Positions 6,940 through 30,529 of a stretch of DNA of 41,057 nucleotides are shown piece after piece; position 1 is the first letter of the stretch; every line of letters begins with the position of its first letter. A program made the position numbers and the translations under genes. Under the pieces are notes generated by a model. That model was not told where the DNA came from. It was given only the letters and a program-made list of their open reading frames with translations, and searched no databases. The stretch is from Pelagibacteraceae bacterium AG-422-B15 (GTDB lineage: Bacteria; Pseudomonadota; Alphaproteobacteria; Pelagibacterales; AG-422-B15), in contig CAJJBM010000007.1 in the NCBI GenBank assembly GCA_905182445.1, forward strand, positions 1 through 41,057. The letters run 5' to 3'.

Positions 6940-6972
6940 ATAAATATTTAATCATAAAATTTATTTTATAAT

Positions 6973-7768: not shown

Positions 7769-7771
7769 TGA

Positions 7772-10585: not shown

Positions 10586-10588
10586 AAT

Positions 10589-11542
10589 CTAACTTTTTTT
10601 TAAGATTTTTTTAGTTTTGATAATATCTTTGTCAATTTGATTTTTAAGAGACTCAATTCCTAAAAATTTCTTTTCAGGTCTTACGTAGTCAACAAAGCTT
10701 ACTTTTAATGCAGTTTTATAAATATTCAATTTAAAACTAAATAAATGCACTTCTAAAACTGCAGTTTTTTTACCAAATGTTGGTCTTAGTCCAAAGTTGG
10801 CAATCCCGTTTTTTATCTCACCTTTATGCTTACCTGAAATGAATGTCACTTTAACAGCATATACACCAAACTTAGGATAGATATATTTTTCAGTTGATAT
10901 ATTGGCAGTTGGAAATCCAATTTGTCTGCCACGTTTATCTCCAGTTATGACTGTACCAGATACTGACCAATGATGTCCTAAAAAATTATTAGCCTCTTTT
11001 ATTTTTCCTTTTTTTATAAATTTTCTAACATTTGAAGAAGAGAATATTTTTTTACTTTTATTAATTTTGTGTAGTTCTGAGCCACTTACTTTAAAGCTAT
11101 TTTCTAATCCAAATTTTTCTAAGTATCTTAAATTTCCAGTTCTATTTTGACCAAAACGAAAGTTTTTTCCTATGAACACATGTTGCATTCTACATCCATT
11201 AAGTAAAATTTTATTGCAAAAAGTTAGAGCAGACATCGATGCAAGTATTTTATTGAATTTAAGAATGATTATAAAATTAACTCCAAGGCTCTCTAAAATT
11301 TCTGACTTTGTTTCAAGTGAAGATAGTAAAAATTGTTTTTCTTTTGTAAAATACTCTCTTGGATGAGGATCAAACATCATTACTCCAAGCTGTGATTTAT
11401 TTCTTTTTGAAATAACTTTTGCAGCCTTGATAACTTTTTTATGACCTCGATGAACACCATCAAAATTTCCTATTACTAAAGATGAATTATAGAAATTTTT
11501 TGAAATCTTACTATAATCTGTAAATACTTTAATTTTACTCAT
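10589..11542 (-). CDS. ribF: Bifunctional riboflavin kinase / FAD synthetase
   Basis: Makes FMN and then FAD from riboflavin. The N-terminal nucleotidyltransferase domain has GNFDGVHRGH (25-34) and MFDPHPREYF (about 56-65). The C-terminal kinase domain has GDKRGRQIGFPTANI and PKFGVYAVKV, with a loop GIANFGLRPTFG. The 317 residues match the family. The start overlaps the stop of the upstream HAD gene by 4 bases (ATGA), indicating coupling. The protein is strikingly rich in lysine, in line with the base composition of the window. Confidence 0.93.
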   Translation of the reverse strand: MSKIKVFTDYSKISKNFYNSSLVIGNFDGVHRGHKKVIKAAKVISKRNKSQLGVMMFDPHPREYFTKEKQFLLSSLETKSEILESLGVNFIIILKFNKILASMSALTFCNKILLNGCRMQHVFIGKNFRFGQNRTGNLRYLEKFGLENSFKVSGSELHKINKSKKIFSSSNVRKFIKKGKIKEANNFLGHHWSVSGTVITGDKRGRQIGFPTANISTEKYIYPKFGVYAVKVTFISGKHKGEIKNGIANFGLRPTFGKKTAVLEVHLFSFKLNIYKTALKVSFVDYVRPEKKFLGIESLKNQIDKDIIKTKKILKKS

Positions 11543-12393
11543 AGGTATTCAGAAGTTAATAGTTTTATAGGTAAATTTGGTAAGTAATTTTTGGCAATTT
11601 TTTCTATTTCATTATTTAATACAATCTCATTTTTATGTATTCCTGACCTAATAAATAAAACATCTATATTAAAGTTGTTTGCCCCAAGAATATCAGTTGA
11701 AAAACTATCTCCAATTGCAAGTAAGTCTTTCTTTAAAATATTTTCATTATTAATATTTAATCGATTCAAAATATATTCATAAATTTCATTATATGGCTTA
11801 CCAAAATACTTTACTATTCCACCCATTTTTTCATAATTGAAAGCTAACGCACCCGCACAATCAATTTTTTTTTCACCTCGATAAACAATCTTATCTGGGT
11901 TGGCACAAACCATAGGAAGCTTTAATTTTTTCATATCATTCAGAATGTGCTTATAATCATTTACCGTTTCAAGCTCATCATCGTCTATGCCAGTACATAA
12001 AACAAAATCTGCTTGAAATAATTCTTCTGCTTGATTTATTTCTATATTTGAAAGCAAATCTTTATCTTTCATTGGCCCTAAATGATAATAGGTTTTTCCA
12101 AAGCTTTTATGATTTAAAAAATTAGCCGTTATATCTCCTGACGTGACAATAAAATCATAAAGGTTTTTATTAAGTCCAAGCTTATTGGTCAATTGATCCT
12201 CAACCATTGAGTTTGGTCTAGGTGCATTAGAAATTAAAACAATTTTTTTCCCATCCTCTTTTACCCTTTCCAAAAACACTTTACTTTTTTCAAAAATTTC
12301 TTTTCCATTATGTACAACGCCCCATAAGTCACAAAGTATTACAGAGTAAGAATTACTTAATTTGTAGCTATCAGTAATATTATGGATTTTCAT
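11539..12393 (-). CDS. HAD-superfamily class IIA hydrolase (TIGR01459-like)
   Basis: A 284-residue phosphatase-like protein of the NagD/class IIA HAD type. The nucleophile motif is ILCDLWGVVHNG, with Asp at 22; motif II is VLISNAPRP; motif III/IV are GKPYNEIYEY and AIGDSFSTDILGANN. The WGVxH variant after the nucleophile is typical of the alphaproteobacterial TIGR01459 group, often found just upstream of ribF as here. It overlaps ribF by 4 bases. Substrate unknown; a sugar or nucleotide phosphatase is likely from the fold. Confidence 0.82.
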   Translation of the reverse strand: MKIHNITDSYKLSNSYSVILCDLWGVVHNGKEIFEKSKVFLERVKEDGKKIVLISNAPRPNSMVEDQLTNKLGLNKNLYDFIVTSGDITANFLNHKSFGKTYYHLGPMKDKDLLSNIEINQAEELFQADFVLCTGIDDDELETVNDYKHILNDMKKLKLPMVCANPDKIVYRGEKKIDCAGALAFNYEKMGGIVKYFGKPYNEIYEYILNRLNINNENILKKDLLAIGDSFSTDILGANNFNIDVLFIRSGIHKNEIVLNNEIEKIAKNYLPNLPIKLLTSEYL

Positions 12394-12404
12394 TAAAAAT
12401 TTTC

Positions 12405-12434
12405 TTGTATAGTTTATCGTTATTCAACTATAAT
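12405..12434 (+). promoter_or_regulatory. Candidate sigma-70 promoter for the SDR gene
   Basis: A -35-like TTGTAT at 12405-12410, an 18-base spacer and a perfect TATAAT at 12429-12434. The expected transcript starts near 12441, giving a leader of about 22 bases before the ATG at 12463. It lies in the 69-base gap between the divergent HAD and SDR genes. Confidence 0.4.
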
Positions 12435-12462
12435 AATTTTTTATAAATTTGTTATACTTATT

Positions 12463-13236
12463 ATGTCTACATTGTTCAATTTATCTGGAAAAAAAGCAAT
12501 AATAACAGGTTCTTCAAGAGGGATTGGTAAAGCAACTGCTATCAGGCTTGCTGAACATGGAGCAAAAGTTGTTATATCAAGTAGAAAAATTGATGCCTGC
12601 CAAGAAGTGGCAAGCGAAATAAATAATACTTATGGTTCCGACACTGCAATAGCATTGGCTTGTAATATATCAGATAAAGAACAGCTACAAAAGCTTCACC
12701 AAGATTCAGTGGCTTGGTGTGGAGACATTGATATATTAGTATGTAACGCCGCAATTAATCCATATTTTGGTCCTTCTTTAAATATTCCTGACTCTGCATT
12801 TGAAAAAATTATGCGTTCAAATGTTCAAAGTAACTTTTGGTTATCTAATATGATAATCCCTAATATGGTAAAAAATAAGAATGGCTCTGTTATAATAATT
12901 TCATCAATTGCTGGCCTACATGGTAGTTCTTTATTGGGAGCTTATGCTATTTCGAAGGCTGCAGATTCTCAGTTAGCTAGAAATATTTCTGTTGAACATG
13001 GTTCAAATGGCGTTCGTGCTAACTGTATATCTCCAGGGTTGATTAAGACTGATTTTGCAAGAGCTCTGTGGGAAGATGAAGCAATTCTCAAATCTCAAAC
13101 TAATAAGTCTGCACTTAAAAGAATTGGCATGCCTGACGAGATTGCTGGAGCTGTTGTTTTTCTAGCTTCACAAGCCGGCTCTTTCACAACTGGGCAAAAT
13201 ATTGTAATTGATGGTGGTGAAGGTGAAACTGCCTAA
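12463..13236 (+). CDS. Short-chain dehydrogenase/reductase
   Basis: NAD(P)-dependent oxidoreductase of the classical SDR type, 257 residues. The cofactor motif TGSSRGIG is at 15-22, NAA at 95-97, the catalytic Ser in ISSIAG at about 147-148, and the YxxxK pair is Tyr161 and Lys165 (AYAISKAA). The end has GQNIVIDGGE, the usual C-terminal signature. The SSRGIG form and ASQAGSFTTGQNIV resemble the DHRS4-like group and many 3-oxoacyl-ACP-reductase-like proteins, so the substrate cannot be named. It is a single gene between the HAD/ribF operon and groESL. Confidence 0.88.
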   Translation: MSTLFNLSGKKAIITGSSRGIGKATAIRLAEHGAKVVISSRKIDACQEVASEINNTYGSDTAIALACNISDKEQLQKLHQDSVAWCGDIDILVCNAAINPYFGPSLNIPDSAFEKIMRSNVQSNFWLSNMIIPNMVKNKNGSVIIISSIAGLHGSSLLGAYAISKAADSQLARNISVEHGSNGVRANCISPGLIKTDFARALWEDEAILKSQTNKSALKRIGMPDEIAGAVVFLASQAGSFTTGQNIVIDGGEGETA

Positions 13237-13292
13237 TCAACTATATAAAATTCATATATATATCATATACTTAAATCTCAAAATCTGAGCCC

Positions 13293-13321
13293 TTGACATG
13301 GTTAGTGTGGATCACTATATG
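13293..13321 (+). promoter_or_regulatory. Promoter of groES-groEL
   Basis: A perfect TTGACA at 13293-13298 (preceded by CC, giving the CTTGAC form also seen in alphaproteobacterial heat-shock promoters), a 17-base spacer, and TATATG at 13316-13321. Transcription would start near 13328, with a leader of about 50 bases ending in the ribosome binding site AGGAG at 13368-13372 before the ATG at 13380. Whether sigma-70 or RpoH reads it cannot be decided; the -10 is closer to sigma-70. Confidence 0.6.
13303..13317. repeat. Inverted repeat inside the groE promoter
   Basis: TAGTG (13303-13307) and CACTA (13313-13317) are separated by TGGAT. The dyad fills most of the spacer between the -35 and -10 elements and reaches the first bases of the -10, a position where a bound repressor would block RNA polymerase. 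It does not fit the HrcA/CIRCE consensus. Confidence 0.4.
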
Positions 13322-13379
13322 CCTACATATACTGAGTGTAATCACCGGTAAGAAATAATTTTATTTAGGAGAATATATA

Positions 13380-13700
13380 ATGAATTTTAGTCCTCTACAC
13401 GACAGAGTGTTAGTAAAAAGGTTAGCGAGTGAAGAAAAGACTGCTGGAGGTATTATCATTCCTGATACAGCTCAAGAAAAACCTCAAGAAGGTTTAATAG
13501 TTGCAATCGGTTCTGGTGCAAAATCTGAAGATGGAAAAGTTACTCCATTAGACGTTAAAGTTGGAGATAAGGTTTTATTTGGTAAATGGTCTGGCACAGA
13601 AATTAAAGTTGATGGTGAAGAGCTTTGTATCATGAAAGAGTCCGACATAATGGGAATTATTGCAGATTCAAAACCAAAAAGTAAAAAAAAGAAAAAATAA
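13380..13700 (+). CDS. groES: Co-chaperonin GroES
   Basis: Caps the GroEL ring during ATP-driven protein folding. The 106 residues start [20 protein letters not shown]; the mobile loop is [17 protein letters not shown], followed by [11 protein letters not shown] and [11 protein letters not shown]. The usual end of the protein, DIMGII, is followed by a short extra tail [12 protein letters not shown]. That lysine-rich tail is not part of ordinary GroES, which ends at about 96-97 residues. A good ribosome binding site (AGGAG) supports the start. groEL follows after 30 bases. Confidence 0.96.
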
Positions 13701-13727
13701 TTATTTAAAAAAATATAAGGAGAATAA

Positions 13728-15386
<1,659 letters not shown>

Positions 15387-15410
15387 TCCAAGCTTAATTG
15401 CTTAATAAAA

Positions 15411-15435
15411 AAACCCGGTTTAGCCGGGTTTTTTT
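15411..15435. terminator. Rho-independent terminator after groEL
   Basis: Stem AAACCCGG (15411-15418) and CCGGGTTT (15424-15431) with a TTTAG loop, followed by T residues to 15435. A run of A residues lies before the stem, so the same hairpin can also end transcripts of the convergent minus-strand gene at 15456. Confidence 0.9.
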
Positions 15436-15455
15436 ATATCTAAATTTTAAGCCTA

Positions 15456-15710
15456 TTAACTTTTCTGATTTTTTGACTTAAATCTCTCTGACAAGTTTTG
15501 AATCTTAGTTTTTCTACCTCTAACTCTTTTTCTCCAATTTAAAAAAGAGGTCCTTTTAAGGTTAGCCTTCATAATAGCAATCACTTCTTTTTCCAATAAA
15601 TCAAATTGAAATTTAATATCGTCAAAAGTTGTTCTATCTTCCCAACCCATCTCTATAATTCTATCAATATCTTTTTGAGATAACGGCTTGGGCTGAGTCA
15701 ACTTCTTCAT
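15456..15710 (-). CDS. Conserved small protein, TIGR03643/DUF2805-like
   Basis: An 84-residue basic protein with no signal peptide or membrane segment. The core LSQKDIDRIIEMGWEDRTTFD, followed by LLEKEVIAIMKANLKRTSFL and NWRKRVRGRKTK, matches the TIGR03643 family. That family is found in many marine bacteria and looks like a small helix-turn-helix-type protein. The pattern of two helices, a turn and the WRKRV(R/S)GRKTK end suggests nucleic acid binding. It is the last gene of the hisS-hisZ-hisG direction, 7 bases after hisG, and ends at the shared groEL terminator. No experimental function known to me. Confidence 0.72.
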   Translation of the reverse strand: MKKLTQPKPLSQKDIDRIIEMGWEDRTTFDDIKFQFDLLEKEVIAIMKANLKRTSFLNWRKRVRGRKTKIQNLSERFKSKNQKS

Positions 15711-15717
15711 AATATAC

Positions 15718-16419
15718 TTATGAAATTGCGCTTAAAAATTGTTCACTGATTTTTTCTAAATCAGAGTTCCAATTAGCTGTTTTAGAATTAAAAATACTAG
15801 CAGATGAACTAAGTATCAATCCATCGTCTAATATTCTTAAATTATTTGCTTTTAATGTTTCACCTGAGGATGTGATATCTACTATAATATCTGACATTCC
15901 ATTAAATGGAGCACTTTCTGTTGAACCTGAGCTTCCCACAGTTCGATAGTCGGTAACTCCACATTTAGAAAAAAAGCGATTAGTTAAATTTGTATATTTG
16001 GTTGCAACCTTAAGGCGCTTTGATGTATTCATCCTTTTAATATGACTAATTTCATCTAAGTCAGCCATTGTAGTAACATCAAGCCATATTTTAGGGACCG
16101 CGACCACTAAATCCGCTTTACCAAAATTTAATATTAGCTCACTAGAAACTTTTGTTTCATAATCAAAAATATACTCTTGCACAAGATCATCGCCGGTAAT
16201 TCCTAAGTGAATATTTCCCTCACTTAATTGAGTAACTATTTCTTTTGCACCCATAAAATATATCAATATATCATTGTGGCTTGATAATTTAGCGATATAG
16301 TTTCTGTCATTACTTTCTTCTATAAAATTAATTTTTTTAGAACTAAGTAATTTTTCTAAATCTTTCCTAAGTCTACCCTTGCTTGGAAAAGCTATTTTTA
16401 ATATTGATTTATTATTCAT
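15718..16419 (-). CDS. hisG: ATP phosphoribosyltransferase, short form
   Basis: First enzyme of histidine biosynthesis: joins ATP and PRPP. The 233 residues are the short form, lacking the C-terminal histidine-sensing ACT domain, so it needs HisZ, encoded directly upstream. Seen motifs: IAFPSKGRLRKDLEKLL at the N-terminus, LGITGDDLVQEY, and the PRPP-binding region DIIVDITSSGETLKANNLRIL near residues 181-201. It lies 3 bases after hisZ. The short form with HisZ is regulated allosterically by histidine through HisZ; the operon also seems to be controlled by the leader described at 19038-19073. Confidence 0.93.
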   Translation of the reverse strand: MNNKSILKIAFPSKGRLRKDLEKLLSSKKINFIEESNDRNYIAKLSSHNDILIYFMGAKEIVTQLSEGNIHLGITGDDLVQEYIFDYETKVSSELILNFGKADLVVAVPKIWLDVTTMADLDEISHIKRMNTSKRLKVATKYTNLTNRFFSKCGVTDYRTVGSSGSTESAPFNGMSDIIVDITSSGETLKANNLRILDDGLILSSSASIFNSKTANWNSDLEKISEQFLSAIS

Positions 16420-16422
16420 ATC

Positions 16423-17550
16423 TTAAATATTATTATTATTTATAGCAAAGCCAATTGCAGAGGCATTGCTATCTAAGCCCAAATTAATAAGAAGAGCATC
16501 ATATCTTCCACCAACTACGACTTTATTGTTCTGATTATCTTTATCCTCAATTTCAAACATAATTCCATCGTAATACTCAATAGAATGGCCAAAATCAGTT
16601 TTAAAATTAATATCCCTACTTCCAATTCCTAACTTAATTTTTTGACTAAAATTTGAGGCTAATTGTACAACAGTATCAAATTGTTTTGCATCTTCTTGAT
16701 TAGTAAAGTTACTCATAGTATTTGCTAACTGGCCTAACTCACAATCAATACTAAGAAATGATCTTATCATCCTAACTATTTCAATACCTTTCTCACTTGA
16801 GATAATTGTTTCACTTTTAATATTCAAACGTTTGATAATATCTTCAATTGACCGCTCTCCAAATTCAATGGGATTAATATTTACAAGACGCTGTTTCAAT
16901 TCACTATCTGATATATCAACTTTAATTCCAAGATGTGTTTTTAGTACATCTTCTTTTCTAGCTTCATTAAACCCTATTCCAAGTTCAATACGTTTTAATA
17001 GTGACTCAAAATAATCTCTTCTAAAAAAATGTCTTCTCAACCTATCTTTCCACCTTTGCGGTAAGTCTAGACAATTAAGAAATTCTATAAATATTGATAT
17101 ATTTCCAAGGTTAATATCAAAATTAACTTTATTAATATTATTTAATGTTTTAATTGCTAGATTAATGATCTCTATTTCTTCTTGGTAATTATCGTCTTTA
17201 TCCGTATTAGCTCTTAGTATTTCAATTCCAGATTGATTAAGTTCTATTGACTTATCTATATTTCCAGATCTGAAGATTGGCCCACTATAGCAAAGTTTTG
17301 CTTGATCAAATTTATAATTATTTTGTAAATATGTTTGGCATGTTGGAATTGTTAAGTCTGGCCTTAAGCACATTTCTAATCCATGTGCACTTGAAACTAA
17401 AAACATATCTTTTCTAATTTGTTCTCCTGAAGTTTCAAAATAGATATCAGAGTTAACAACTAAGGGTGGTTCTATATATTTAAATCCCTCTAAAAGAAAA
17501 AACTCTTTAAACTTATTATTCAATTCTTGTATTGATTGATTGCCAGACAT
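16423..17550 (-). CDS. hisZ: ATP phosphoribosyltransferase regulatory subunit
   Basis: A catalytically silent relative of histidyl-tRNA synthetase that activates short-form HisG and carries the histidine feedback site. The 375 residues align with the class II synthetase core: FFLLEGFKYIEPPLV, LRPDLTIPTC, CYSGPIFRSGNIDKSIELNQSG and GGRYDALLINLG near the end. The C-terminal anticodon-binding domain of true HisRS is missing, which fits HisZ. It lies between hisS (1 base apart) and hisG (3 bases), so the three are co-translated from one transcript. Confidence 0.9.
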   Translation of the reverse strand: MSGNQSIQELNNKFKEFFLLEGFKYIEPPLVVNSDIYFETSGEQIRKDMFLVSSAHGLEMCLRPDLTIPTCQTYLQNNYKFDQAKLCYSGPIFRSGNIDKSIELNQSGIEILRANTDKDDNYQEEIEIINLAIKTLNNINKVNFDINLGNISIFIEFLNCLDLPQRWKDRLRRHFFRRDYFESLLKRIELGIGFNEARKEDVLKTHLGIKVDISDSELKQRLVNINPIEFGERSIEDIIKRLNIKSETIISSEKGIEIVRMIRSFLSIDCELGQLANTMSNFTNQEDAKQFDTVVQLASNFSQKIKLGIGSRDINFKTDFGHSIEYYDGIMFEIEDKDNQNNKVVVGGRYDALLINLGLDSNASAIGFAINNNNI

Positions 17551-17551
17551 A

Positions 17552-18937
17552 TTAAGTAAAGATTTTTTTTATTTCAGCAAGAAGCTCATCTTTATTAATT
17601 GTAAATTGGCCTGCTTTTAATTCTTTCCATTCTTCTCGACTATCTATATTTTTTGAAAGTTCCTTGCCAACAGTCAAATTCTTTAATGAAATAGTGTTAT
17701 TTTCCATTTCATCTTCACCAATAATAACTACAACAGATGCTTTTCTTTTATCACAATATTTTAGCTGTTTACTTAAATTACTCGATCCATAAAAAATTTC
17801 GCAGGCGTATCCCTCGTTACGCAATTGATCTGCTATCTTTAAATAAGTAGAAATTTGATCAGATAGTAGATTTGCTATAATTATCAATGGTCTTTTACTA
17901 GAGCTAATTTTATCAAACTGTTCTATAGCGTATACCAATCTATCAACTCCTATGGAAATACCAGTTGCTGGAACATCTTCCTTACCAAACCTTGCAATTA
18001 ATTTATCATATCTCCCACCTCCTGCTACAGAACCAAATATAACCTCTTTACCTTTATCATTTAATATCTGGGCGGTGAGTTCAACTTCAAAAACAAGCCC
18101 TGTATAATATTCTAATCCCCTTACTACAGTTGGATCAAACTCAAACGGAAGTTCTTTGTAATTCTGTAAGTATTCCTCAAAAGAATTAAGTTGATCATCT
18201 TTAGTAGTTTTATTAGAAATAAAATCTAAAATTTCTTCAGCCTGATTGTCTTTTAAATTAACACCCTGCATAAAATCACCAGATTTATCTTTACGGCCCT
18301 TTAAAAGTAACTCTTTGACACCATCTGTCCCTAAACGATCCAGTTTATCTACCGCTCTTAAGACTGCTGGTATTTGAATTTCATCAAGATTAATTTTTTT
18401 AAAAAGATCTTCCCAGATTACTCTACTCGAATACTTTACTTTGAATTCACTTGCAGTAAATCCAAGTTCCAAAAATATTTTTGCGACCATTACACATAAT
18501 TCAGCATCGATATAATTATTACTAATGCCAATAACATCGGCATCAAATTGAATAAATTCTCTATATCTTCCTGGACCTGGTTTTTCATTTCTCCATACTG
18601 AACCAACTTGATATCGTTTAAAAGGCTTAGGAATAAACTGATAATTTTCTGCCACGTATCTTGCTAATGGTGCCGTTAAATCGTAGCGCATTGATATCCA
18701 TTGATCATCTTCATCTTGAAATGAAAATACTCCACCACTTGGTCTTTCCACGTCAGGTAAAAATTTCCCTAAGGCTTCAGTATATTCAAGCGCTGGCGTT
18801 TCTATGTTTTTAAAACCAAATTTTTCACACTCGTTCCTGATAACCGCAATCACTTGATTTCTAATATCAATATTTTCTTCTGAGCTATCTTTAAATCCCT
18901 TAGGCAGCTGAGCTTTTGGTTTATTATTTTTATTCAT
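17552..18937 (-). CDS. hisS: Histidyl-tRNA synthetase
   Basis: Charges tRNA-His. The 461 residues have class II motifs: RYDLTAPLARYV (84-95), motif 2 FKRYQVGSVWRNEKPGPGR with RYREFIQFDADVIG (124-137), the histidine-binding RGLEYYTGLVFE, and GGGRYDKLI plus GISIGVDRLV (motif 3). The motif 2 form GPGRYREFxQFDAD resembles the eukaryote-like synthetases of one alphaproteobacterial clade, not the GRYRQFHQ form of E. coli. This fits the tRNA-His without G-1 at 20397-20473. A C-terminal anticodon-binding domain (about 355-440) is present. First gene of hisS-hisZ-hisG; a His-codon-rich leader precedes it. Confidence 0.94.
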   Translation of the reverse strand: MNKNNKPKAQLPKGFKDSSEENIDIRNQVIAVIRNECEKFGFKNIETPALEYTEALGKFLPDVERPSGGVFSFQDEDDQWISMRYDLTAPLARYVAENYQFIPKPFKRYQVGSVWRNEKPGPGRYREFIQFDADVIGISNNYIDAELCVMVAKIFLELGFTASEFKVKYSSRVIWEDLFKKINLDEIQIPAVLRAVDKLDRLGTDGVKELLLKGRKDKSGDFMQGVNLKDNQAEEILDFISNKTTKDDQLNSFEEYLQNYKELPFEFDPTVVRGLEYYTGLVFEVELTAQILNDKGKEVIFGSVAGGGRYDKLIARFGKEDVPATGISIGVDRLVYAIEQFDKISSSKRPLIIIANLLSDQISTYLKIADQLRNEGYACEIFYGSSNLSKQLKYCDKRKASVVVIIGEDEMENNTISLKNLTVGKELSKNIDSREEWKELKAGQFTINKDELLAEIKKIFT

Positions 18938-18956
18938 AATTTACATTCATAATACG

Positions 18957-18974
18957 GTATCAATTATATGATAC
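18957..18974. repeat. Hairpin just upstream of hisS
   Basis: GTATCA (18957-18962) and TGATAC (18969-18974) form a perfect 6-bp stem with a 6-base A/T loop, 20 bases before the hisS ATG. In the hisS transcript it would lie just upstream of the ribosome binding region. Confidence 0.45.
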
Positions 18975-19012
18975 TCAAAAAGTTAACTTAGTAATTTATA
19001 TAGGGGGTCGCA

Positions 19013-19037
19013 GTCTGTTAAAACGTTTTTAACAAAC
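19013..19037 (-). promoter_or_regulatory. 11-bp RNA hairpin directly after the His leader stop codon
   Basis: On the minus strand GTTTGTTAAAA and TTTTAACAGAC pair over 11 positions (one G-U) around a 3-base ACG loop. The stem begins at the base after the leader TAA, so a ribosome at the stop codon would cover it and one held at the His codons might not. The next bases are GCGACCCCC, not a T run, so it is not a standard intrinsic terminator. Confidence 0.5.
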
Positions 19038-19073
19038 TTAAATATGATAGTGATGATGCAACAAAGTAATCAT
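19038..19073 (-). CDS. Histidine leader peptide MITLLHHHYHI
   Basis: An 11-residue ORF (ATG at 19073, TAA at 19038) whose codons 6-10 are CAT CAT CAC TAT CAT, i.e. four His and one Tyr. It starts 136 bases before hisS on the same strand. Runs of His codons in a short ORF upstream of histidine genes are the hallmark of ribosome-mediated attenuation: low charged tRNA-His stalls the ribosome there and changes folding of the downstream RNA. The ATG lies in a small hairpin (CATTTC 19071-19076 with GAAATG 19081-19086), and the bases just before the ATG (GGGAA) are too close for a normal ribosome binding site. The regulated genes would be hisS, hisZ and hisG. The peptide itself probably has no function. 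Confidence 0.75.
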   Translation of the reverse strand: MITLLHHHYHI

Positions 19074-19107
19074 TTCCCGTGAAATGCCCGAATTATGGGA
19101 AAAAGTC

Positions 19108-19136
19108 AATATCTAATCATTTTTTCAAATTTTCAA
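19108..19136 (-). promoter_or_regulatory. Candidate promoter of the his leader-hisS operon
   Basis: On the minus strand TTGAAA (complement of 19131-19136), a 17-base spacer and GATATT (complement of 19108-19113). Transcription would start near 19101, about 28 bases before the leader ATG. The -35 overlaps the dyad at 19134-19150. Confidence 0.4.
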
Positions 19137-19150
19137 TCTTTCGAAGATTG
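19134..19150. repeat. Perfect 7-bp inverted repeat at the his promoter
   Basis: CAATCTT (19134-19140) and AAGATTG (19144-19150) around TCG. It overlaps the -35 of the predicted minus-strand promoter and lies 52 bases before the MFS start on the plus strand, so it could be an operator shared by the divergent genes or a hairpin in the MFS leader. Confidence 0.45.
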
Positions 19151-19202
19151 TCGTTATTCCGCAATAAAAGGCTATATTTATGAAATTAATCGAATCAAAT
19201 AA

Positions 19203-20390
19203 ATGAATCAAAATACTGCAAGATTAACAACATTTTATGCTGCAACTGGTCACATGTTCATGCATATGTTTGCTGCCTTTTACTTTGTTATTGTGTTAGC
19301 AATTGAAGACGATTGGCAATTTAGTTACGACGAACTAATTAATCTCTGGTTTCTTGGATCGTTATTAGTCGGTTTAGGTGCAATACCCTCTGGTTGGCTG
19401 AGTGATCGTTGGAGCCGTTCAGGTATGATGGCAATTATGTTTATAGGCTTAGGAATAGCATCTATAGGTTGTGGCTTAAGTACTGATAAATTTTACCTAC
19501 TTATTAGCCTATCTGTTCTTGGGCTATTTTGTTCTATTTATCATCCAGCTGGAATTGCTTGGGTTGTTAATTCATCTCATGCAACCGGTAGAGCCTTAGG
19601 CTTTAATAATATATTTGGAGGGGTCGGCATAGGTATTGGCGCTCTTAGCTCTGGCATTATTATAAAATATCTAAATTGGCAAATGGCATTCATTATACCT
19701 GGTGTCATTTCTATATTATTAGGTGTACTTCTTACTTGGCATATTATTTCTAAATCAATACCTATTAAAAATATTACTTCAGAAAAATTTAAAGAAAATC
19801 CACCAAAAGGAGATTACTTAAAAATCATCATAATTATGCTTATCAGCATTACATGTATGGGCTTCATATTTCAGATATTGCAAACATCTATTCCAAAAGT
19901 GATTGATATAAGGTTAAGTGAAAGTTTAAATTTAGATACTGCAAAAATTGGAATTGCTGTTTCTAGTATATATATTATTAGTGGCTTAATGAACTATATC
20001 GGAGGCATACTTGCTGATAAGTATTCAGAAAAAATTATTTATGTTTCCGGTATTTTTGGTCAGGCAGTATTGTTATTTATTGTAGCTTCCACTTCAAACT
20101 ATTTACTAATTATATTCGCGCTTATGACAGTCGCTTTTAATTCGAGTATTTTACCTGCAGAAAATGTACTGCTAGCCAAGTTTTCTCCTGAAAAATATCA
20201 AGGTCTTGTTTATGGAATAAAATTTATTGTTTCTTTTGCAATTGCTCCTGTAGCAGTACTATTGATCTCTAAAAGTTACGAAATAACTAATGAATTTATT
20301 TATTTATATATGGGCGGTGGATTTATAATGATCTTAGTATTTATGATGGCTATTAGTTTACCCTACTCACAAGAATCAAAGGCTATATAA
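19203..20390 (+). CDS. Major facilitator superfamily transporter
   Basis: A 395-residue inner-membrane protein with about 12 hydrophobic segments. The loop 2-3 MFS signature is GWLSDRWSRSG (about 64-74), and the conserved YHPAGIAWV at about 113-121 resembles the FHP motif of the fosmidomycin-resistance/nitrate-type branch. No substrate-specific motif is visible; drug export or organic anion uptake are both possible. The ATG at 19203 overlaps the TGA of an 8-codon ORF (MKLIESNK, 19180-19206), so initiation may depend on re-starting there. It is divergent from the hisS leader, with which it shares a 129-base spacer. Confidence 0.83.
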   Translation: MNQNTARLTTFYAATGHMFMHMFAAFYFVIVLAIEDDWQFSYDELINLWFLGSLLVGLGAIPSGWLSDRWSRSGMMAIMFIGLGIASIGCGLSTDKFYLLISLSVLGLFCSIYHPAGIAWVVNSSHATGRALGFNNIFGGVGIGIGALSSGIIIKYLNWQMAFIIPGVISILLGVLLTWHIISKSIPIKNITSEKFKENPPKGDYLKIIIIMLISITCMGFIFQILQTSIPKVIDIRLSESLNLDTAKIGIAVSSIYIISGLMNYIGGILADKYSEKIIYVSGIFGQAVLLFIVASTSNYLLIIFALMTVAFNSSILPAENVLLAKFSPEKYQGLVYGIKFIVSFAIAPVAVLLISKSYEITNEFIYLYMGGGFIMILVFMMAISLPYSQESKAI

Positions 20391-20396: not shown

Positions 20397-20473
20397 TGGT
20401 ACAGCTGGTCTGACTTGAACAGACGACCTCCTGGTCCACAACCAGGCGCTCTAACCAACTGAGCTACAGCTGC
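20397..20473 (-). tRNA. tRNA-His (GTG), without encoded G-1
   Basis: Read on the minus strand it folds as a complete cloverleaf: acceptor GCAGCTG with CAGCTGT, D arm TAGCTCAGTTGGTTAGA, anticodon stem CCTGG/CCAGG around TTGTGGA (anticodon GTG), and T arm with GTTCAAGTC. CCA is encoded. The base before G1 is T, so the normal tRNA-His G-1 is not in the gene; position 1-72 is G-U and base 73 is A. This is the form known from one clade of alphaproteobacteria. It lies 7 bases after the MFS stop on the other strand. Confidence 0.95.
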
Positions 20474-20860: not shown

Positions 20861-20905
20861 AGGCTCAAGGTGGACTTAATCCACCGACACAAGAATTTTT
20901 AGCCT
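20861..20905. repeat. Nested hairpin after the DUF2061 gene
   Basis: Inner stem GGTGGA (20869-20874) with TCCACC (20880-20885), loop CTTAA; outer stem AGGCT (20861-20865) with AGCCT (20901-20905). It lies between two convergent genes and could limit read-through from both sides, although no T run follows directly. The rest of the 20856-20957 gap shows nothing else. Confidence 0.45.
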
Positions 20906-20957: not shown

Positions 20958-21407
20958 TTAGGAAACTGATTCTACAAGTAAATTACAAAAGTTTATATCT
21001 GATAATATGTACCCATAAAAAGGGTCTACATTTTTTTCTAGTTGTTTATTCATATCACTTGAATACAACGCAAGCATACTGGCAACAATTTCTTTTGTTT
21101 GAATGTGAGCTTCTTCTTGGTTAACATTTTTAAAGTCAATATAGGGAACCAAAGAATATCTAAATAACATTTCAGAAAGTCCATAAGTTTGTTTTACTGA
21201 TTTTTGCAGTTCTTCGTCTGCATATAAGGCCATTGTATTTGAAATACCCATATAAAGTGCTGTGCATCTATTAACAGAATATAATTTATGCTCTATAGAT
21301 TTCGCGCCTTTATCCTTCATATATTCATCAATAGAGGAAAGAGAATCTTTAGCACTTACAAATGAAATTGAGGAAAGAATTAAGGATATAATAAATATAT
21401 ATTTCAC
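20958..21407 (-). CDS. Secreted protein of unknown function, two cysteines
   Basis: A 149-residue protein with a typical signal peptide: MKYIFIISLILSSISFVSA, probable cleavage at VSA-KD near residue 19-20. The mature part is mostly helical, with two Cys, one in VNRCTALYMG (about 48) and one in INFCNLLVES (about 142), which could form a disulfide in the periplasm. I recognise no family. It lies 40 bases after a 43-codon candidate gene on the same strand and may be transcribed with it. Confidence 0.6.
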   Translation of the reverse strand: MKYIFIISLILSSISFVSAKDSLSSIDEYMKDKGAKSIEHKLYSVNRCTALYMGISNTMALYADEELQKSVKQTYGLSEMLFRYSLVPYIDFKNVNQEEAHIQTKEIVASMLALYSSDMNKQLEKNVDPFYGYILSDINFCNLLVESVS

Positions 21408-21447
21408 TATTTCACAATATAAAAATATTAAGTTTATTCAACAATTC

Positions 21448-21579
21448 TTATGCATATAGCTTAGAAATATACTTATGACCATATGAAGTGACGGGGTCAG
21501 CGCGAACTAAACCCGTCGATTGTCTTGTATACAATGGTTTTGGTTTTGTAAACCAAGCTAATGGACTTATTGGACTCAC
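21448..21579 (-). CDS. Candidate 43-residue protein, GTG start
   Basis: ORF from GTG at 21579 to TAA at 21448. The protein begins MSPISPLAWFTKPKPLYTRQ and continues STGLVRADPVTSYGHKYISK, ending LYA. It is Pro-, Tyr- and Lys-rich, has no membrane segment or signal peptide, and has a balanced composition unlike the AT-driven noise of other frames here. AGTAGG 5 bases before the GTG is a possible ribosome binding site, and an in-frame TAG three codons upstream fixes GTG as the only usual start. It lies between tRNA-Phe and the secreted-protein gene on the same strand. I recognise no family; an RNA element instead of a protein is the alternative. The remaining part of the 21580-21656 gap shows only a short AGGTT/AACCT stem. 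Confidence 0.42.
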   Translation of the reverse strand: MSPISPLAWFTKPKPLYTRQSTGLVRADPVTSYGHKYISKLYA

Positions 21580-21656
21580 TAGTACCTACTGCAATTTATC
21601 GTAAAGCACAGGTTCTTTTAAACCTATAATATTTGACTGATTTGTTGGTATTGTAG

Positions 21657-21732
21657 TGGTGGCTCGACCTGGACTTGAACCAGGGACACAAGGATTTTCA
21701 GTCCTTTGCTCTACCAACTGAGCTATCGAGCC
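21657..21732 (-). tRNA. tRNA-Phe (GAA)
   Basis: On the minus strand: acceptor GGCTCGA/TCGAGCC, D arm AGCTCAGTTGGTAGAGC, anticodon stem AAGGA/TCCTT with loop CTGAAAA (anticodon GAA), T arm CCTGGTTCAAGTCCAGG, A73 and encoded CCA. It lies 26 bases after maf on the same strand and may be part of that transcript. Confidence 0.96.
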
Positions 21733-21758
21733 TTGATAAAATAATCGAAGATAATGTT

Positions 21759-22325
21759 TTAATCTAAATAACCCATAGATGAAAGCATATTTTTAACCTC
21801 ATATAAAGGTAATCCAACAACATTAGTGTACGAACCATTGATAGACTTAACAAATGATGCTGCAATACCTTGTATCTTATACGCCCCAGCAACATTGACC
21901 CATTCATTGCTCTCTAAATATTTATCAATTTCTAGATTAGTTAGACTCTTAAAATTTATTACTGTTTGAACTGATTTACAAATACTCTTATTTCCATTGG
22001 TGATGAAGATAGATGATACTACTCTGTGTCTTCTGCCTGATAAAAGTTCAAGATATTTTTTTGCAATATTTATGTCTTCAGTTTTATCAATAATACGCCT
22101 ACCACAAAATGCAATAGTGTCAGCAGTTAGGATTAAAGAATTTGGTTGTTCGTCCTGAATTTTTAAGGCTTTGCTCATAGCTAATCGTTTTGCACAAACT
22201 GTGGGTAATTCATCTTTTAAATTTTTCTCATCAATATCAGGACTGATAATCATATCTGGAATGATACCTATACTCTCTAAAAGTTCTTTGCGTCTAGGGG
22301 ATGAACTACCAAGTATAAATTGCAA
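21759..22325 (-). CDS. maf: Maf-like nucleotide pyrophosphatase
   Basis: Hydrolyses non-canonical or modified nucleoside triphosphates (house-cleaning enzyme). The 188 residues start with the signature LGSSSPRRKELLESIGI, then DEKNL, and SLILTADTIAFCGR with the catalytic Asp in TADT. SGRRHRVVSSI is the third conserved block. The size is usual. It lies 17 bases after infA, a common alphaproteobacterial neighbour. Whether it is the dTTP/UTP type or the m7GTP type (YceF) cannot be read from the motifs I see. Confidence 0.92.
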   Translation of the reverse strand: MQFILGSSSPRRKELLESIGIIPDMIISPDIDEKNLKDELPTVCAKRLAMSKALKIQDEQPNSLILTADTIAFCGRRIIDKTEDINIAKKYLELLSGRRHRVVSSIFITNGNKSICKSVQTVINFKSLTNLEIDKYLESNEWVNVAGAYKIQGIAASFVKSINGSYTNVVGLPLYEVKNMLSSMGYLD

Positions 22326-22342
22326 CTATAAATCTCTATTTG

Positions 22343-22561
22343 TTATTTATATCTAAAAGTAATTCGACCTTTTGTAAGATCGTAAGGTGTGACTTGAACC
22401 AGTACTTCGTCTCCAGTAAGGACACGAATTCTATTTTTTCTCATTCTACCGGCAGTATGAGCAAGTACAGTGTGACCATTTTCAAGTTCAACTTTGAACA
22501 TTGCATTAGGTAAAATTTCTGAAACTTTACCTTTAAATTCTAATATTTCTTCTTTTGACAT
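22343..22561 (-). CDS. infA: Translation initiation factor IF-1
   Basis: Single OB-fold protein of 72 residues that binds the A-site of the 30S subunit during initiation. The family sequence is well kept: [62 protein letters not shown]. It lies 3 bases after hisD and 17 before maf; infA-maf adjacency is typical for alphaproteobacteria. Confidence 0.97.
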
Positions 22562-22564
22562 ATA

Positions 22565-23857
22565 TTATTTTTTCGTAAGCCTATAATCTATTGATCTTGC
22601 ATGCCCGTCAAGTCCTTCGTTGGCAGCAATCTCATTAGCAGCTGGCCCAATTTGATTTAAGTTTTCTTGAGAACATTCGACAATTGAAGTTCTTTTTAAG
22701 AAATCAAAAACAGAAAGTCCAGAAGAATATTTTGCTGACTTAGAGGTTGGCAAAACATGACTGGGTCCAGCTATATAATCGCCAATTGCTTCTGGAGTAT
22801 TAGAACCTAGAAATACAGCACCAGCATTTTTGATTTTTTTAAGGTGAGACCTAGCATTACCTACCATCAACTCTAGGTGTTCAGGAGCAAATCTATTAGA
22901 TACTTTGATGGCCTCGTCAATATTCTCAACAATAATTATAGCCCCATTATCATTCCAGCTCTTAGAAGCTATTTCTTTTCTTGGTAAGCTGACAAGTTGC
23001 TCCGCTACTTCTAATTCAACATTTTCTGCAAGAGTAATATCATCAGTTATAAAGATACTTTGAGCACTGACATCATGTTCGGCTTGTGAAATTAAATCAG
23101 CTGCAATGTTTCTAGCGTCTTGATTTTTGTCAGCAATAACTAATATTTCTGATGGGCCAGCAACCATGTCAATGCCAACATCTCCGTATACCATTTTTTT
23201 AGCTTCAGCTACATAAGCGTTGCCTGGTCCAACTATGAGATTAACAGGGTCTATAGTTTTTGTTCCATATGCGAGTGCTGCAATCGCTTGCGCACCACCT
23301 ATTTTAAAAATTTTATCAACTCCAGAAATTTTTGCGGCATATAAAACTAATGGATTTATTTTTCCACCATTTGCTGGTGTAACCATAATAATATTTTCAA
23401 CTCCCGCGACCTTAGCCGGAACGGTATTCATGATAACTGAGCTCGGGTAGCTTGCAGTTCCACCTGGAACATAAACTCCAGCAGATTCAACGGAGTTCCA
23501 AATAAATCCCAGCTCAATGCCAAGCTCGTCCTTATAGTTAAGGTCTTCTGGAAGTTGTTTTTTATGATAGGCTGTTACTCTATCATGAGAAAGTTGAATA
23601 GCCTGCTTAAGTTCATCAGAAATATCTTTTGATGCTAATTCAATTTCTTCATTTGATACCAATATCTCAGTTAAATTTAAATCATTACTATCTAATTTGT
23701 TAGTTAGTTTTATAAGCGCTTCATCGCCATTTATTTTTACATCAGTTATAATATTTTTAACTGTCTCACCAATATCTACAGGTACCCCTCTATCAAGAGA
23801 AAGAATTTCTTCAAGTTGGGTATCAAAATCTAAGTCTTTACTGACAATTTTTTTCAT
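22565..23857 (-). CDS. hisD: Histidinol dehydrogenase
   Basis: Last two steps of histidine synthesis: histidinol to histidine, NAD-dependent, zinc-containing. From the ATG at 23857 the protein has 430 residues, the family size. Motifs: IVGPGNAYVAEAKKMVYGDV, DMVAGPSEILVIAD, SQAEHDVSAQS, NRFAPEHLEL and GPSHVLPTS. A longer frame starting at 23896 would add 13 residues that overlap the DUF2948 gene and is not used. The start lies just after the DUF2948 stop (TAGTAATG). It is separate from hisSZG but in the same 9-kb region. Confidence 0.95.
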   Translation of the reverse strand: MKKIVSKDLDFDTQLEEILSLDRGVPVDIGETVKNIITDVKINGDEALIKLTNKLDSNDLNLTEILVSNEEIELASKDISDELKQAIQLSHDRVTAYHKKQLPEDLNYKDELGIELGFIWNSVESAGVYVPGGTASYPSSVIMNTVPAKVAGVENIIMVTPANGGKINPLVLYAAKISGVDKIFKIGGAQAIAALAYGTKTIDPVNLIVGPGNAYVAEAKKMVYGDVGIDMVAGPSEILVIADKNQDARNIAADLISQAEHDVSAQSIFITDDITLAENVELEVAEQLVSLPRKEIASKSWNDNGAIIIVENIDEAIKVSNRFAPEHLELMVGNARSHLKKIKNAGAVFLGSNTPEAIGDYIAGPSHVLPTSKSAKYSSGLSVFDFLKRTSIVECSQENLNQIGPAANEIAANEGLDGHARSIDYRLTKK

Positions 23858-23859
23858 TA

Positions 23860-24279
23860 CTAATTTTCTTTTGGCTGTTCTTTTTTTACAGACCATGGCT
23901 CACCACGATCTTCTAACTTGCATTTAACAAGTTCTGTCTCAATTTTTATAGTGGCATCATTTTTAAAAAGCAATTCAATTTCTAAATTTTTATTTTTATT
24001 GGTGTAATAGTTAAAATCTAGCAACTCCAGTACATTTTTTGTATCGGCTTGATCAATGTTTTTAGATGTTACGGACAAAACATCTTCAAAAAATACAACT
24101 GCCTTGGTTCTAAGATTTACCTTATTAATAGCCTGTTCCTCCCACATAAAGCGAGTAATCATAGCCACAAATGAACGAATAGATGGTAAATATTTAACAT
24201 CACTGACTTCTATCAGTCCATCTTTTAGAACTGTAGAGATTATTTTTAATTCATCTGTATCAATCGCATTTAATCGCAT
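23860..24279 (-). CDS. DUF2948 family protein
   Basis: A 139-residue soluble protein of an alphaproteobacterial family regularly found between murA and hisD, as here. The start RLNAIDTDELKIISTVLKDG and RSFVAMITRFMWEE are characteristic, as is the acidic middle (VKYLP near 30, DFNYYT near 90). No catalytic motif or membrane segment is visible. It lies 2 bases before hisD and 9 bases after murA. Function unknown. Confidence 0.75.
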   Translation of the reverse strand: MRLNAIDTDELKIISTVLKDGLIEVSDVKYLPSIRSFVAMITRFMWEEQAINKVNLRTKAVVFFEDVLSVTSKNIDQADTKNVLELLDFNYYTNKNKNLEIELLFKNDATIKIETELVKCKLEDRGEPWSVKKEQPKEN

Positions 24280-24288
24280 TGAACTATA

Positions 24289-25554
24289 TTACTGTATTCT
24301 TTTTATATTAGCACCACATGAAGCTAACTTATTTTCTAATTTTTCATAACCTCTATCTAAATGGTAAACTCTATTTATAGTAGTCTCTCCTTTTGCGATT
24401 AAGCTTGCAAGAACAAGACTTACTGATGCCCTTAGATCTGTTGCCATAACTTGTGCACCTGAAAATCCATTACATGGATTAATCTTAGCTTGTGATCCAT
24501 TAATTTCTATATTTGCACCCATTCGATTTAACTCTGGAACATGCATAAATCTATTTTCAAATATATTTTCTCTTATCACCGATGACCTATTTGATAGAGA
24601 TAATAAAACCATCATTTGTGCCTGCAGGTCTGTTGGAAAGCCTGGATATTCTCGTGTATCTAGCTCTATACTTTTACTAATATCTGAAATCTTAACTTTA
24701 AGATTATTATCACTTTTAATCATGTCAACTCCTAAGCTTTCAAAAACAGAAAGTAAGTTTTTTATATGGTCAAAATTGATATTTCTTATTTCTAAGTCAC
24801 CTTGTGTAATTGCTCCAGCAATAATATATGTGCCTACCTCAATTCGATCTGGGATTACTGTATGAGTGGCTCCATGTAATTCATCAACACCTTGAATTAG
24901 AACTTTTCTATTAGGTCCAACTTCAATTTGCGCACCCATTGCTTTTAGCAAATCTATTAAGTCAATAATTTCTGGTTCAATTGCAATATTGGTAATTTCT
25001 GTTTCACCTTTAGCTAAAGATGCAGCCATAATAATATTTTCAGTAGCTCCAACTGAAATCATTGGAAGTTCAATTTTTGCTCCTTTTAAACCAGATTTTG
25101 CTTCGCACTTGATATAGCCTTTTTCTAAATTAAATTCTCCACCAAGTTTTGCTAATGCATCAACATGAATATTGACTGGTCTTGCACCAATTGCACAGCC
25201 ACCTGGCATGGAGACGGTAGCTTCTCTTTTTCTAGCCAATAAAGGTCCTAAGACCAAAATGCTAGCACGCATTTTTCTTACCAAGTCGTACTCAGCTAAG
25301 GCCTTATCACTTTCTTGATAGGTTAGTTTAATTTGATTATTTTCTATGAGTTTACTCTTATCAAAATTTACCCCCAGTGAATCTAATACACTACCCATAG
25401 TATGAATATCTGCGAGATTAGGCGTGTTATCTAAAATAACAGATTCATTTGTTAGTATGCTTGCTGCCATTAAGGGCAGTGAAGCATTCTTTGAACCACT
25501 AATTTCAATAGTTCCTTGAAGAGGCTCTCCTCCAATTATGACTATTTTTTCCAT
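24289..25554 (-). CDS. murA: UDP-N-acetylglucosamine 1-carboxyvinyltransferase
   Basis: First committed step of peptidoglycan synthesis: transfers enolpyruvate from PEP to UDP-GlcNAc. The 421 residues show GSKNASLPLMAASIL with Lys22, the active-site loop MPGGCAIGARP with catalytic Cys120 (the fosfomycin target), DRIEVGTYIIAGAI and EYPGFPTDLQAQ. Keeping Cys rather than Asp at this position predicts fosfomycin sensitivity of the enzyme itself. It lies 9 bases after dcd. Confidence 0.96.
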   Translation of the reverse strand: MEKIVIIGGEPLQGTIEISGSKNASLPLMAASILTNESVILDNTPNLADIHTMGSVLDSLGVNFDKSKLIENNQIKLTYQESDKALAEYDLVRKMRASILVLGPLLARKREATVSMPGGCAIGARPVNIHVDALAKLGGEFNLEKGYIKCEAKSGLKGAKIELPMISVGATENIIMAASLAKGETEITNIAIEPEIIDLIDLLKAMGAQIEVGPNRKVLIQGVDELHGATHTVIPDRIEVGTYIIAGAITQGDLEIRNINFDHIKNLLSVFESLGVDMIKSDNNLKVKISDISKSIELDTREYPGFPTDLQAQMMVLLSLSNRSSVIRENIFENRFMHVPELNRMGANIEINGSQAKINPCNGFSGAQVMATDLRASVSLVLASLIAKGETTINRVYHLDRGYEKLENKLASCGANIKRIQ

Positions 25555-25563
25555 TATGATATT

Positions 25564-26118
25564 TTAGAGTTTTGGAAGTGTGACGCCCTCTTGATTCATA
25601 TACTTACCTTTACGATCTTTATAGGTAATAGCTGGTGGCGCTTCACCTTTATAAAATAAAAACTGACAGGCACCCTCATTAGCATAAATTTTTGCTGGTA
25701 GTGGTGTAGTATTTGAAAATTCTAAGGTTACATGACCTTCCCATTCTGGCTCTAACGGAGTTACATTGACAATGATTCCACAGCGTGCATAAGTTGATTT
25801 ACCAAGACATATAACTAAAACATCCTTAGGAATCTTAAAATATTCAACTGTACGTGCTAAAACAAAGGAATTTGGAGGAATAATACACTCATCACCAGAA
25901 CGATCTACAAAACTTTTATCATTAAAATTTTTGGGATCAACAATTACAGAGTCTACGTTAGTAAAAACTTTAAATTCGGTAGATACACGAGCATCATATC
26001 CATATGAAGATACACCATAAGAAATAGTTCCATCTTTTTTTTGCCCGTCTACAAATGGTTCAATCATATTTTCTTCACGAGCCATTTTTGTAATCCAGTT
26101 GTCAGACATTATTGTCAT
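25564..26118 (-). CDS. dcd: dCTP deaminase
   Basis: Makes dUTP from dCTP for thymidylate synthesis. The 184 residues contain the trimer core [20 protein letters not shown] (about 115-134), then [20 protein letters not shown] and [10 protein letters not shown]. The catalytic Glu lies in VTLEFSN. Two ATG codons (26118 and 26109) are possible; the first is chosen because AAAGG lies 8 bases before it and because it overlaps the TGA of the small gene at 26115-26240 as ATGA. It is followed by murA. Confidence 0.94.
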
Positions 26119-26240
26119 ATATTTTTACCTTTGTTATTAATTTTTTTTTGAAAAAGTTTACGTTTTTGTAAGTTAGCTCTTAAAGCGATAGATAATTTTT
26201 CTTTCTTATCCTCATCTAATTTTTTATTAACCTTTTGCAC
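26115..26240 (-). CDS. Small basic protein (41 residues), GTG start
   Basis: ORF from GTG at 26240 to TGA at 26115. The sequence includes [20 protein letters not shown] and then RKLFQKK. The pattern of a short charged region followed by ALRANLxxRK resembles a small conserved alphaproteobacterial protein seen upstream of dcd/murA genes. It overlaps the end of the gene before it by 14 bases and the dcd start by 4 bases (ATGA). Tight coupling on both sides supports real translation. Highly basic and helical, so nucleic acid or ribosome binding is possible but unproven. Confidence 0.58.
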
Positions 26241-26415
26241 GACCAACTAAGAATTCTTTAATATCTTCTGGACTAAGCCCAGCTTTCTTTAGTTCTTTAA
26301 CTAATTTTTCTTCTTCTTTTTTATCTGTATTATCTGCATGCTTAGAATCACGCTTCTCTTGTTTAGCCATGGCTCTTTCGCCTCTTTTTGACTTATAATC
26401 ATGATGAATACCCAT
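26227..26415 (-). CDS. Small charged protein (62 residues)
   Basis: Starts MGIHHDYKSKRGERAMAKQE, with a region of Lys/Glu (DKKEEEKLVKEL) and the end [20 protein letters not shown]. The start at 26415 is chosen because GAGG lies 5 bases before it; the frame is open upstream to 26454. No membrane segment or signal. The end LSPEDIKEFL looks like a helix. Function unknown. It is first in the minus-strand run to dcd and murA. Confidence 0.55.
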   Translation of the reverse strand: MGIHHDYKSKRGERAMAKQEKRDSKHADNTDKKEEEKLVKELKKAGLSPEDIKEFLVGRAKG

Positions 26416-26461
26416 AGAAACCTCTGTATTTAGAATTTTGCTTATAATATACAAAAGTTAA

Positions 26462-26508
26462 TAGATTCTCTAGAAATATTGTAATTTTTTTATAATTTAT
26501 AGAATCTA
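26462..26508. repeat. 8-bp inverted repeat between DUF779 and the small gene
   Basis: TAGATTCT (26462-26469) and AGAATCTA (26501-26508) with a 31-base A/T-rich loop. It begins right after the DUF779 stop codon (minus strand) and could act as a weak terminator or as a binding site. Confidence 0.4.
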
Positions 26509-26509
26509 G

Positions 26510-26857
26510 TTATACGGCGCAAACTGTAGATCTTGTCAAAAATCTTCTTCCAGTACCGTTATCTAAAGAGAACATGCCACCAATACCAGAAACTGAGTCT
26601 ATGATAAGATCTGTATTTTGCCATCTTTCATATTGATCTTCGTTCATGTAAAATGGAACTCCACCAATTTCTCCAAGTTTTATATCCCGATCACCTAAGA
26701 AAAAGTCTTTAGCTTCATAGCACATGGGCGCACTTCCATCGCAACAACCACCTGATTGGTGAAAAATTAATTCATTTCCATATTTTTGCTTTAGATCGTT
26801 GATCAAGCTTAGTGCAGCATCAGTTGCTGATACTTCCATTATATGTTTTTCAGTCAT
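26510..26857 (-). CDS. DUF779 family protein
   Basis: A 115-residue protein of a family almost always next to acetaldehyde-type aldehyde dehydrogenases, as here (60 bases after it). Cys-rich signature HQSGGCCDGSAPMCY (about 38-52), then FYMNEDQYERWQNTDLIID, and SVSGIGGMFSLDNGTGRRF at the end. The conserved Cys could bind metal. AAGG 5 bases before ATG supports the start. Function not established; a role in aldehyde oxidation or in dehydrogenase maturation is inferred only from context. Confidence 0.85.
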   Translation of the reverse strand: MTEKHIMEVSATDAALSLINDLKQKYGNELIFHQSGGCCDGSAPMCYEAKDFFLGDRDIKLGEIGGVPFYMNEDQYERWQNTDLIIDSVSGIGGMFSLDNGTGRRFLTRSTVCAV

Positions 26858-26878
26858 GTTTACCTTGAAAATTTAAGT

Positions 26879-26904
26879 GGCCCCCTAGGTTATTATCGGG
26901 GGCT
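26879..26904. repeat. G+C-rich hairpin between aldehyde dehydrogenase and DUF779 genes
   Basis: GCCCCC (26880-26885) pairs with GGGGGC (26898-26903), plus a G-T pair outside, with a 12-base A/T loop. It is the most G+C-rich element of this stretch and no T run follows on the minus strand. It could trim expression of DUF779 relative to the dehydrogenase or protect the upstream mRNA. Confidence 0.6.
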
Positions 26905-26917
26905 ATTTTAATGGATC

Positions 26918-28456: not shown

Positions 28457-28541
28457 TTTTTACTCCCCAGTAAATTATTTATCATTTTGTATTTAGTAAT
28501 TGTGAACTTATAAATGAAGCATGACAAGATGAATCTTATTA

Positions 28542-28569: not shown

Positions 28570-28635
28570 AATACCTCCACCAGTTAGATAATTCATTTGC
28601 TTATATGATAACCCTATGGTTTTATTGCTAAAACT

Positions 28636-30528: not shown

Positions 30529-30529
30529 A

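Follow-up and report, generated by a model that had tools for sequence, protein, structure and literature searches.

A conserved histidine leader ORF before hisS-hisZ-hisG in SAR11 bacteria, a probable sensor of charged tRNA-His

On the minus strand of the window, the whole 41,057-nt stretch of DNA analysed here (contig CAJJBM010000007.1 of Pelagibacteraceae bacterium AG-422-B15), the genes hisS, hisZ and hisG follow one another with gaps of 1-3 nt. An intergenic region of 265 nt separates hisS from a divergent MFS transporter gene and contains a short ORF rich in His codons. The features of the locus are as follows:

15718..16419, minus strand: hisG, short-form ATP phosphoribosyltransferase (TIGR00070 above cut-off; PF01634)
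16423..17550, minus strand: hisZ, ATP phosphoribosyltransferase regulatory subunit (hisZ models; PF13393)
17552..18937, minus strand: hisS, histidyl-tRNA synthetase (TIGR00442 above cut-off; PF13393)
19038..19073, minus strand: leader ORF MITLLHHHYHI followed by a stop codon (an 11-codon ORF kept in 44/44 loci)
19203-20390, plus strand: MFS transporter gene, divergent from hisS
20397..20473, minus strand: tRNA-His (GUG), upstream of the leader and separate from it (ARAGORN)

Family models identify the three his genes on the minus strand, in the order that the sequence-only reading had assigned to them after the leader. The best hisZ match (1-6 variant, E 6e-80) lies below the curated cut-off of its model. 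A His leader was also looked for before the tRNA-His gene of the window, and none was found there. Farther upstream, a stretch resembling the 3′ half of tRNA-Phe (about 20862-20905, minus strand; local alignment score 48 against a shuffled maximum of 29) lies downstream of an intact tRNA-Phe (21657-21732), with an orphan ORF (20958-21407, no family matches) between the two. The tRNA-Phe-like stretch and the orphan ORF are perhaps the footprint of an old integration.

Re-reading the leader bears out the earlier description of an 11-codon ORF on the hisS strand with CAT CAT CAC TAT CAT near its end. Its codons on the minus strand are ATG ATT ACT TTG TTG CAT CAT CAC TAT CAT ATT TAA, His occupying positions 6, 7, 8 and 10. 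The 136 bases originally given as the distance to hisS hold from ATG to ATG; measured from the leader stop to the hisS ATG, the distance is 100 nt. Among ATG ORFs of 6-40 codons on both strands of the 41-kb window, this is the sole one with at least four His in five codons. When the 265-nt intergenic region was resampled 20,000 times under a first-order Markov model, no such His-dense ORF arose, the background rate of His ORFs being estimated from the 41-kb window.

Conservation was assessed in 53 genomes of the window's family (AG-422-B15-like, SAR11 order). A hisS match was present in 45 of them and was merely a fragment in one, leaving 44 loci. Every one of the 44 has a leader of exactly 11 codons with clustered His codons, its stop lying 88-100 nt from hisS. 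Other peptides of the family are MFKFKHHHYHI, MIVFTHHHIHI, MLIIKHHHSHI, MFNFKHHTAHI and MINKLIHHYHI. His codons swap between CAT and CAC, and single ones are sometimes lost. Identity to the window's HisS ranges from 57 to 93% in these genomes; that the leader is kept throughout, though HisS identity drops to 57%, counts in favor of a leader peptide. The leader ORF is real and conserved. The sequence-only reading had proposed a search upstream of hisS in relatives, and had held that an ORF or His codons not conserved in close relatives would speak against it. Conservation was instead found at all loci compared, 44/44 in this family and 41/41 in the sister family described below. Presence in every relative checked suggests that the element is very probably a built-in sensor of charged tRNA-His.

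The leader is preceded by promoter-like boxes at constant spacing:

19105..19109, minus strand: -35-like box TTGAC (33/33 distinct family sequences have it, 35 or 36 nt upstream of the leader ATG)
19082..19087, minus strand: -10-like box GCATTT (sequence and constant spacing)

In the window, GCATTT follows TTGAC at 17 nt and precedes the leader ATG by 8 nt; across the family, assuming a 17-nt spacer, the -10-like box ends 7-8 nt before the ATG. In the sister family, a TTGN box is found at 33-36 nt in nearly all loci, a figure that is partly circular as the same spacing helped to pick among candidate leader starts. This constant spacing predicts a transcription start at or beside the leader ATG, and the leader mRNA is thus probably leaderless, or nearly so. 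A hisS start downstream of 19038 had been named at the outset as evidence against the leader; the conserved promoter-like spacing lies instead upstream of the leader and predicts a start before hisS that would include it.

Between the leader stop and hisS, three elements can be recognized:

19013..19037, minus strand: hairpin I, GTTTGTTAAAA-ACG-TTTTAACAGAC, candidate antiterminator (covariation in the family alignment)
19003..19009, minus strand: C-rich tract GACCCCC, unpaired, possible Rho site (family alignment)
18957..18974, minus strand: hairpin II, GTATCA-TATAAT-TGATAC (past the C-rich tract, ahead of hisS)

Hairpin I begins 1 nt past the leader stop codon. Across 25 distinct sequences, 221 of 221 scored cells are paired, three pairs are changed on both sides, and the covariation score is reached by none of 500 shuffles. 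The position fits masking by a ribosome at the stop codon, not by one stalled at the His codons, and it is where the antiterminator of trp-type attenuators begins. With a covariance model built from leader and hairpin, each genome has a single significant copy, in every case at hisS; searching the genomes with it revealed no additional significant copies. The weak matches that were inspected (L131-L134) lacked a recognizable leader. Within the C-rich tract, ACCCC is invariant in the window's family. In the window's genus, about 20 nt separate hairpin II from the hisS ATG, with no evident ribosome-binding site; other genera have a hairpin of different sequence at this position, the arms shifting between genera. 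A search for helices shared by 11 or more of 12 diverse members yielded only hairpin I and short 4-bp matches. Partners for the hairpin I 3′ arm or for ACCCC within about 160 nt downstream are not conserved, with energies mostly within the shuffle range. A 5-bp complement, GGGUU, in the "GFKD" codons of hisS was considered as an alternative partner and rejected, being absent in several members.

No intrinsic terminator was found after hairpin I in the window leader or in the 33 distinct family sequences, and the window's family yielded no terminator stem that would compete with hairpin I as in a classical attenuator. The element is therefore classed as working like a ribosome-mediated attenuator, not as a proven classical member. 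The attenuation reading originally put forward thus stands as regards the conserved ORF, its His codons and the covarying hairpin after the stop; the terminator half was not found in the window's family. Terminator-like hairpin-plus-T sites number 11 in positions 1-20000 of the window (8.8 in shuffles) and 9 in positions 21058-41057 (10.0 in shuffles); being no commoner than in shuffles, they suggest that canonical intrinsic terminators may be of little importance in this lineage. Rho is encoded in complete genomes of both families, and its action at the ACCCC tract may provide the off-switch in the window's family. Downstream of hairpin I, C exceeds G only modestly, so that the case for Rho is weak.

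The order's only other sampled family, which we take to be Pelagibacteraceae proper, has a different arrangement. In all 41 loci with enough upstream sequence, a different His leader comes first, then tRNA-His, then hisS. The leaders have 2-6 His codons (MNKLVIINKETHRHHFHAGCKLAI, MKNIVLNHTHHHTHAKHGLGN and MIINITYRETSRSTHRLCFHSL are examples). ARAGORN identifies a tRNA-His(GUG) between leader and hisS in 37 of the 41 loci, and the Rfam tRNA model finds one with the GUG anticodon in the remaining four (L044, L099, L100 and L176). The tRNA-His of these four has an unusual T-arm loop (GCGUAA type), missed by ARAGORN. The sister-family leader perhaps controls the tRNA-His gene itself, as the layout would allow. 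The two loci that were read further have hisZ and hisG after hisS. Folding of sister-family loci gives a hairpin at, or overlapping, the leader end, whose arms differ yet are complementary. The window shares with this family the neighborhood of Maf, tRNA-Phe, tRNA-His, hisS-hisZ-hisG and groEL; in the window's own family, tRNA-His sits beyond the MFS gene, upstream of the leader. Matched against the window, sister-family HisS proteins form two groups of differing similarity (E about 1e-135 versus about 1e-91), which suggests hisS divergence or replacement within one genus. Leaders with only two His codons (L046, L096, L097, L098, L174 and L178) count against a leader peptide. They display a THR/FHS-like pattern with repeated Thr and Arg codons; its retention alongside only two His raises the possibility that the peptide matters beyond its His codons.

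Among 46 other alphaproteobacterial hisS loci, one carries an unmistakable leader, MNTALHHHHHHS. In the order to which this locus belongs, a His leader precedes hisS in 16 of 52 loci. One family of that order has MNTxLHHHHHHx or a similar peptide, followed directly by CGCGCC-loop-GGCGCG (loci L151, L195, L198, L199, L206 and L209-L213). With the 10 nt that follow the stop masked in these loci, the 3′ arm pairs instead with a downstream UGCGCC, the two hairpins being mutually exclusive; the second is without a clear U-tract. Mutually exclusive hairpins are the expected anatomy of an attenuator and support the view that hairpin I of the window is an antiterminator. Another family of the same order (L194, L201, L207, L217 and L226) has longer His leaders of the MTRTAHHHGHHHPT... 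type before hisS, with a different strong hairpin after the leader.

Leader peptides of this general kind have precedents. In gammaproteobacteria, His leaders are known before hisG, the start of the his biosynthetic operon (Rfam RF00514). The window element likewise combines a short leader ORF, clustered His codons, a hairpin after or at its end, and histidine genes next; unlike RF00514, with hisG first and a terminator, it is an 11-codon leader before hisS-hisZ-hisG with no terminator found. At gathering score, the RF00514 covariance model matches neither the window nor representative loci, and in 10 genomes it gives sub-threshold matches only, none at hisS. In Firmicutes, hisS can be preceded by a T-box riboswitch; the Rfam T-box model has no match upstream of hisS in the window or in representative loci, and no Rfam family covers the leader element. 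Leaders rich in the cognate codon also precede synthetase genes, as here, namely pheST (the pheM leader) of Escherichia coli and gammaproteobacteria and trpS and leuS of Streptomyces (PMC1262725). These concern other amino acids and lineages, whereas in the window hisZ-hisG, for the first biosynthetic enzyme, come after the synthetase gene. The proposal that the synthetase is the first controlled gene agrees with a leader kept before hisS, but synthetase-gene leaders as such are not new. Closer in their genes are the bacilli, where His leaders precede hisZ and a hisS paralogue (PMC2965389, PMC4833913, PMC9413887); those Firmicutes leaders have described terminators, and the window differs from them in sequence and arrangement. 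Closer in lineage is the alphaproteobacterial trpL of Sinorhizobium meliloti, whose mRNA begins at the leader AUG (PMC10117765, PMC7298713). A start at the AUG is likewise predicted here, from spacing only, whereas for trpL, a Trp leader, the start is mapped and translation shown experimentally. Conserved codons without an obvious terminator recall the cys leaders of Mycobacterium, for which Rho has been proposed (PMC1262725); these respond to another amino acid, cysteine, in Actinobacteria, whereas a covarying hairpin and an invariant ACCCC follow the window leader. A search of the open-access literature returned no report of a His leader upstream of hisS in alphaproteobacteria or SAR11, and a study of Pelagibacter RNAs (Meyer 2009, PMC2704228) makes no mention of hisS or leader peptides. 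His leaders and synthetase-gene leaders were already known, and the SAR11 hisS leader is well supported as a new alphaproteobacterial variant.

We consider it likely, with a probability of roughly 0.8, that the element is a translated and probably leaderless His leader peptide through which hisS-hisZ-hisG expression depends on charged tRNA-His. The parts of the model that the sequence itself shows are the promoter spacing, the conserved leader with its clustered His codons, hairpin I and the ACCCC tract. If charged tRNA-His ran short, a ribosome would stall on the CAT/CAC cluster (codons 6-10), leaving the RNA past the stop codon free so that hairpin I could form. When it is plentiful, the ribosome would reach the stop and cover about 10 nt downstream, blocking the 5′ arm of hairpin I. 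Hairpin I would then act as an antiterminator and turn expression on, as in trp-type attenuators and as read from the hisS leaders of the other order. The direction of the response, from stalling to expression, is taken from established attenuators and physiology. The off-switch would operate without a recognizable intrinsic terminator in the window's family and may be Rho acting at the C-rich tract.

The missing terminator also suits translational control, in which leader translation would alter access to the hisS start via hairpin II, with no premature termination. The members that were folded have a hairpin immediately ahead of the hisS start, and in one group its 3′ arm includes the GGGA of the likely ribosome-binding site. 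The distance of hairpin II from the hisS ATG in the window's genus, where no ribosome-binding site is evident, argues against such control, as does the lack of conserved pairing between hairpins I and II, and we regard it as a possible but distinctly less probable mechanism. It appears unlikely that hairpin I itself serves as the terminator or stop signal and is hidden by fully translating ribosomes, so that expression drops when histidine is short. In 16 of 22 sister-family loci the T-rich tail after the leader-end hairpin satisfies a loose terminator rule, but AT-rich DNA gives such tails by chance and the window's family has none; moreover, this logic is opposite to that of known amino-acid attenuators, and the response would be reversed.

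The leader or its short RNA might also act in trans, alongside a cis role or in place of one, like peTrpL/rnTrpL of Sinorhizobium, a member of the same class with a similar leaderless arrangement to that predicted here (PMC10117765, PMC7298713). The strict linkage of the leader to hisS in all genomes makes this improbable indeed. As for a functionless chance ORF, short ORFs are frequent (the window has 733 nested ATG ORFs of 6-40 codons), but the outcome of the resampling and the conservation in all 44 relatives reduce this idea to near insignificance. Going beyond the preferred reading of a His leader peptide, one may tentatively picture a SAR11 homeostat, for which we would give somewhat less than even odds. 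Through a leaderless leader, the ribosome would read charged tRNA-His and so set transcription of the tRNA-His gene (in the sister family), the synthetase and the first His enzyme; in the window's family, with no intrinsic terminator, hairpin I would act against Rho or another non-hairpin termination signal at ACCCC.

SAR11 bacteria rank with the most abundant cells on Earth, and little dedicated regulation is generally attributed to them. An amino-acid leader conserved in both sampled SAR11 families would give them an explicit way of sensing histidine supply. Lying outside all Rfam families, the element fills an annotation gap, and with its terminator missing, the locus is a good example of how attenuation in AT-rich genomes may do without intrinsic termination. 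The greatest interest lies where the sensed tRNA gene sits inside the controlled unit: in the leader/tRNA-His/hisS layout of the sister family, the sensed molecule may be a regulated product as well, which is unusual for peptide attenuators.
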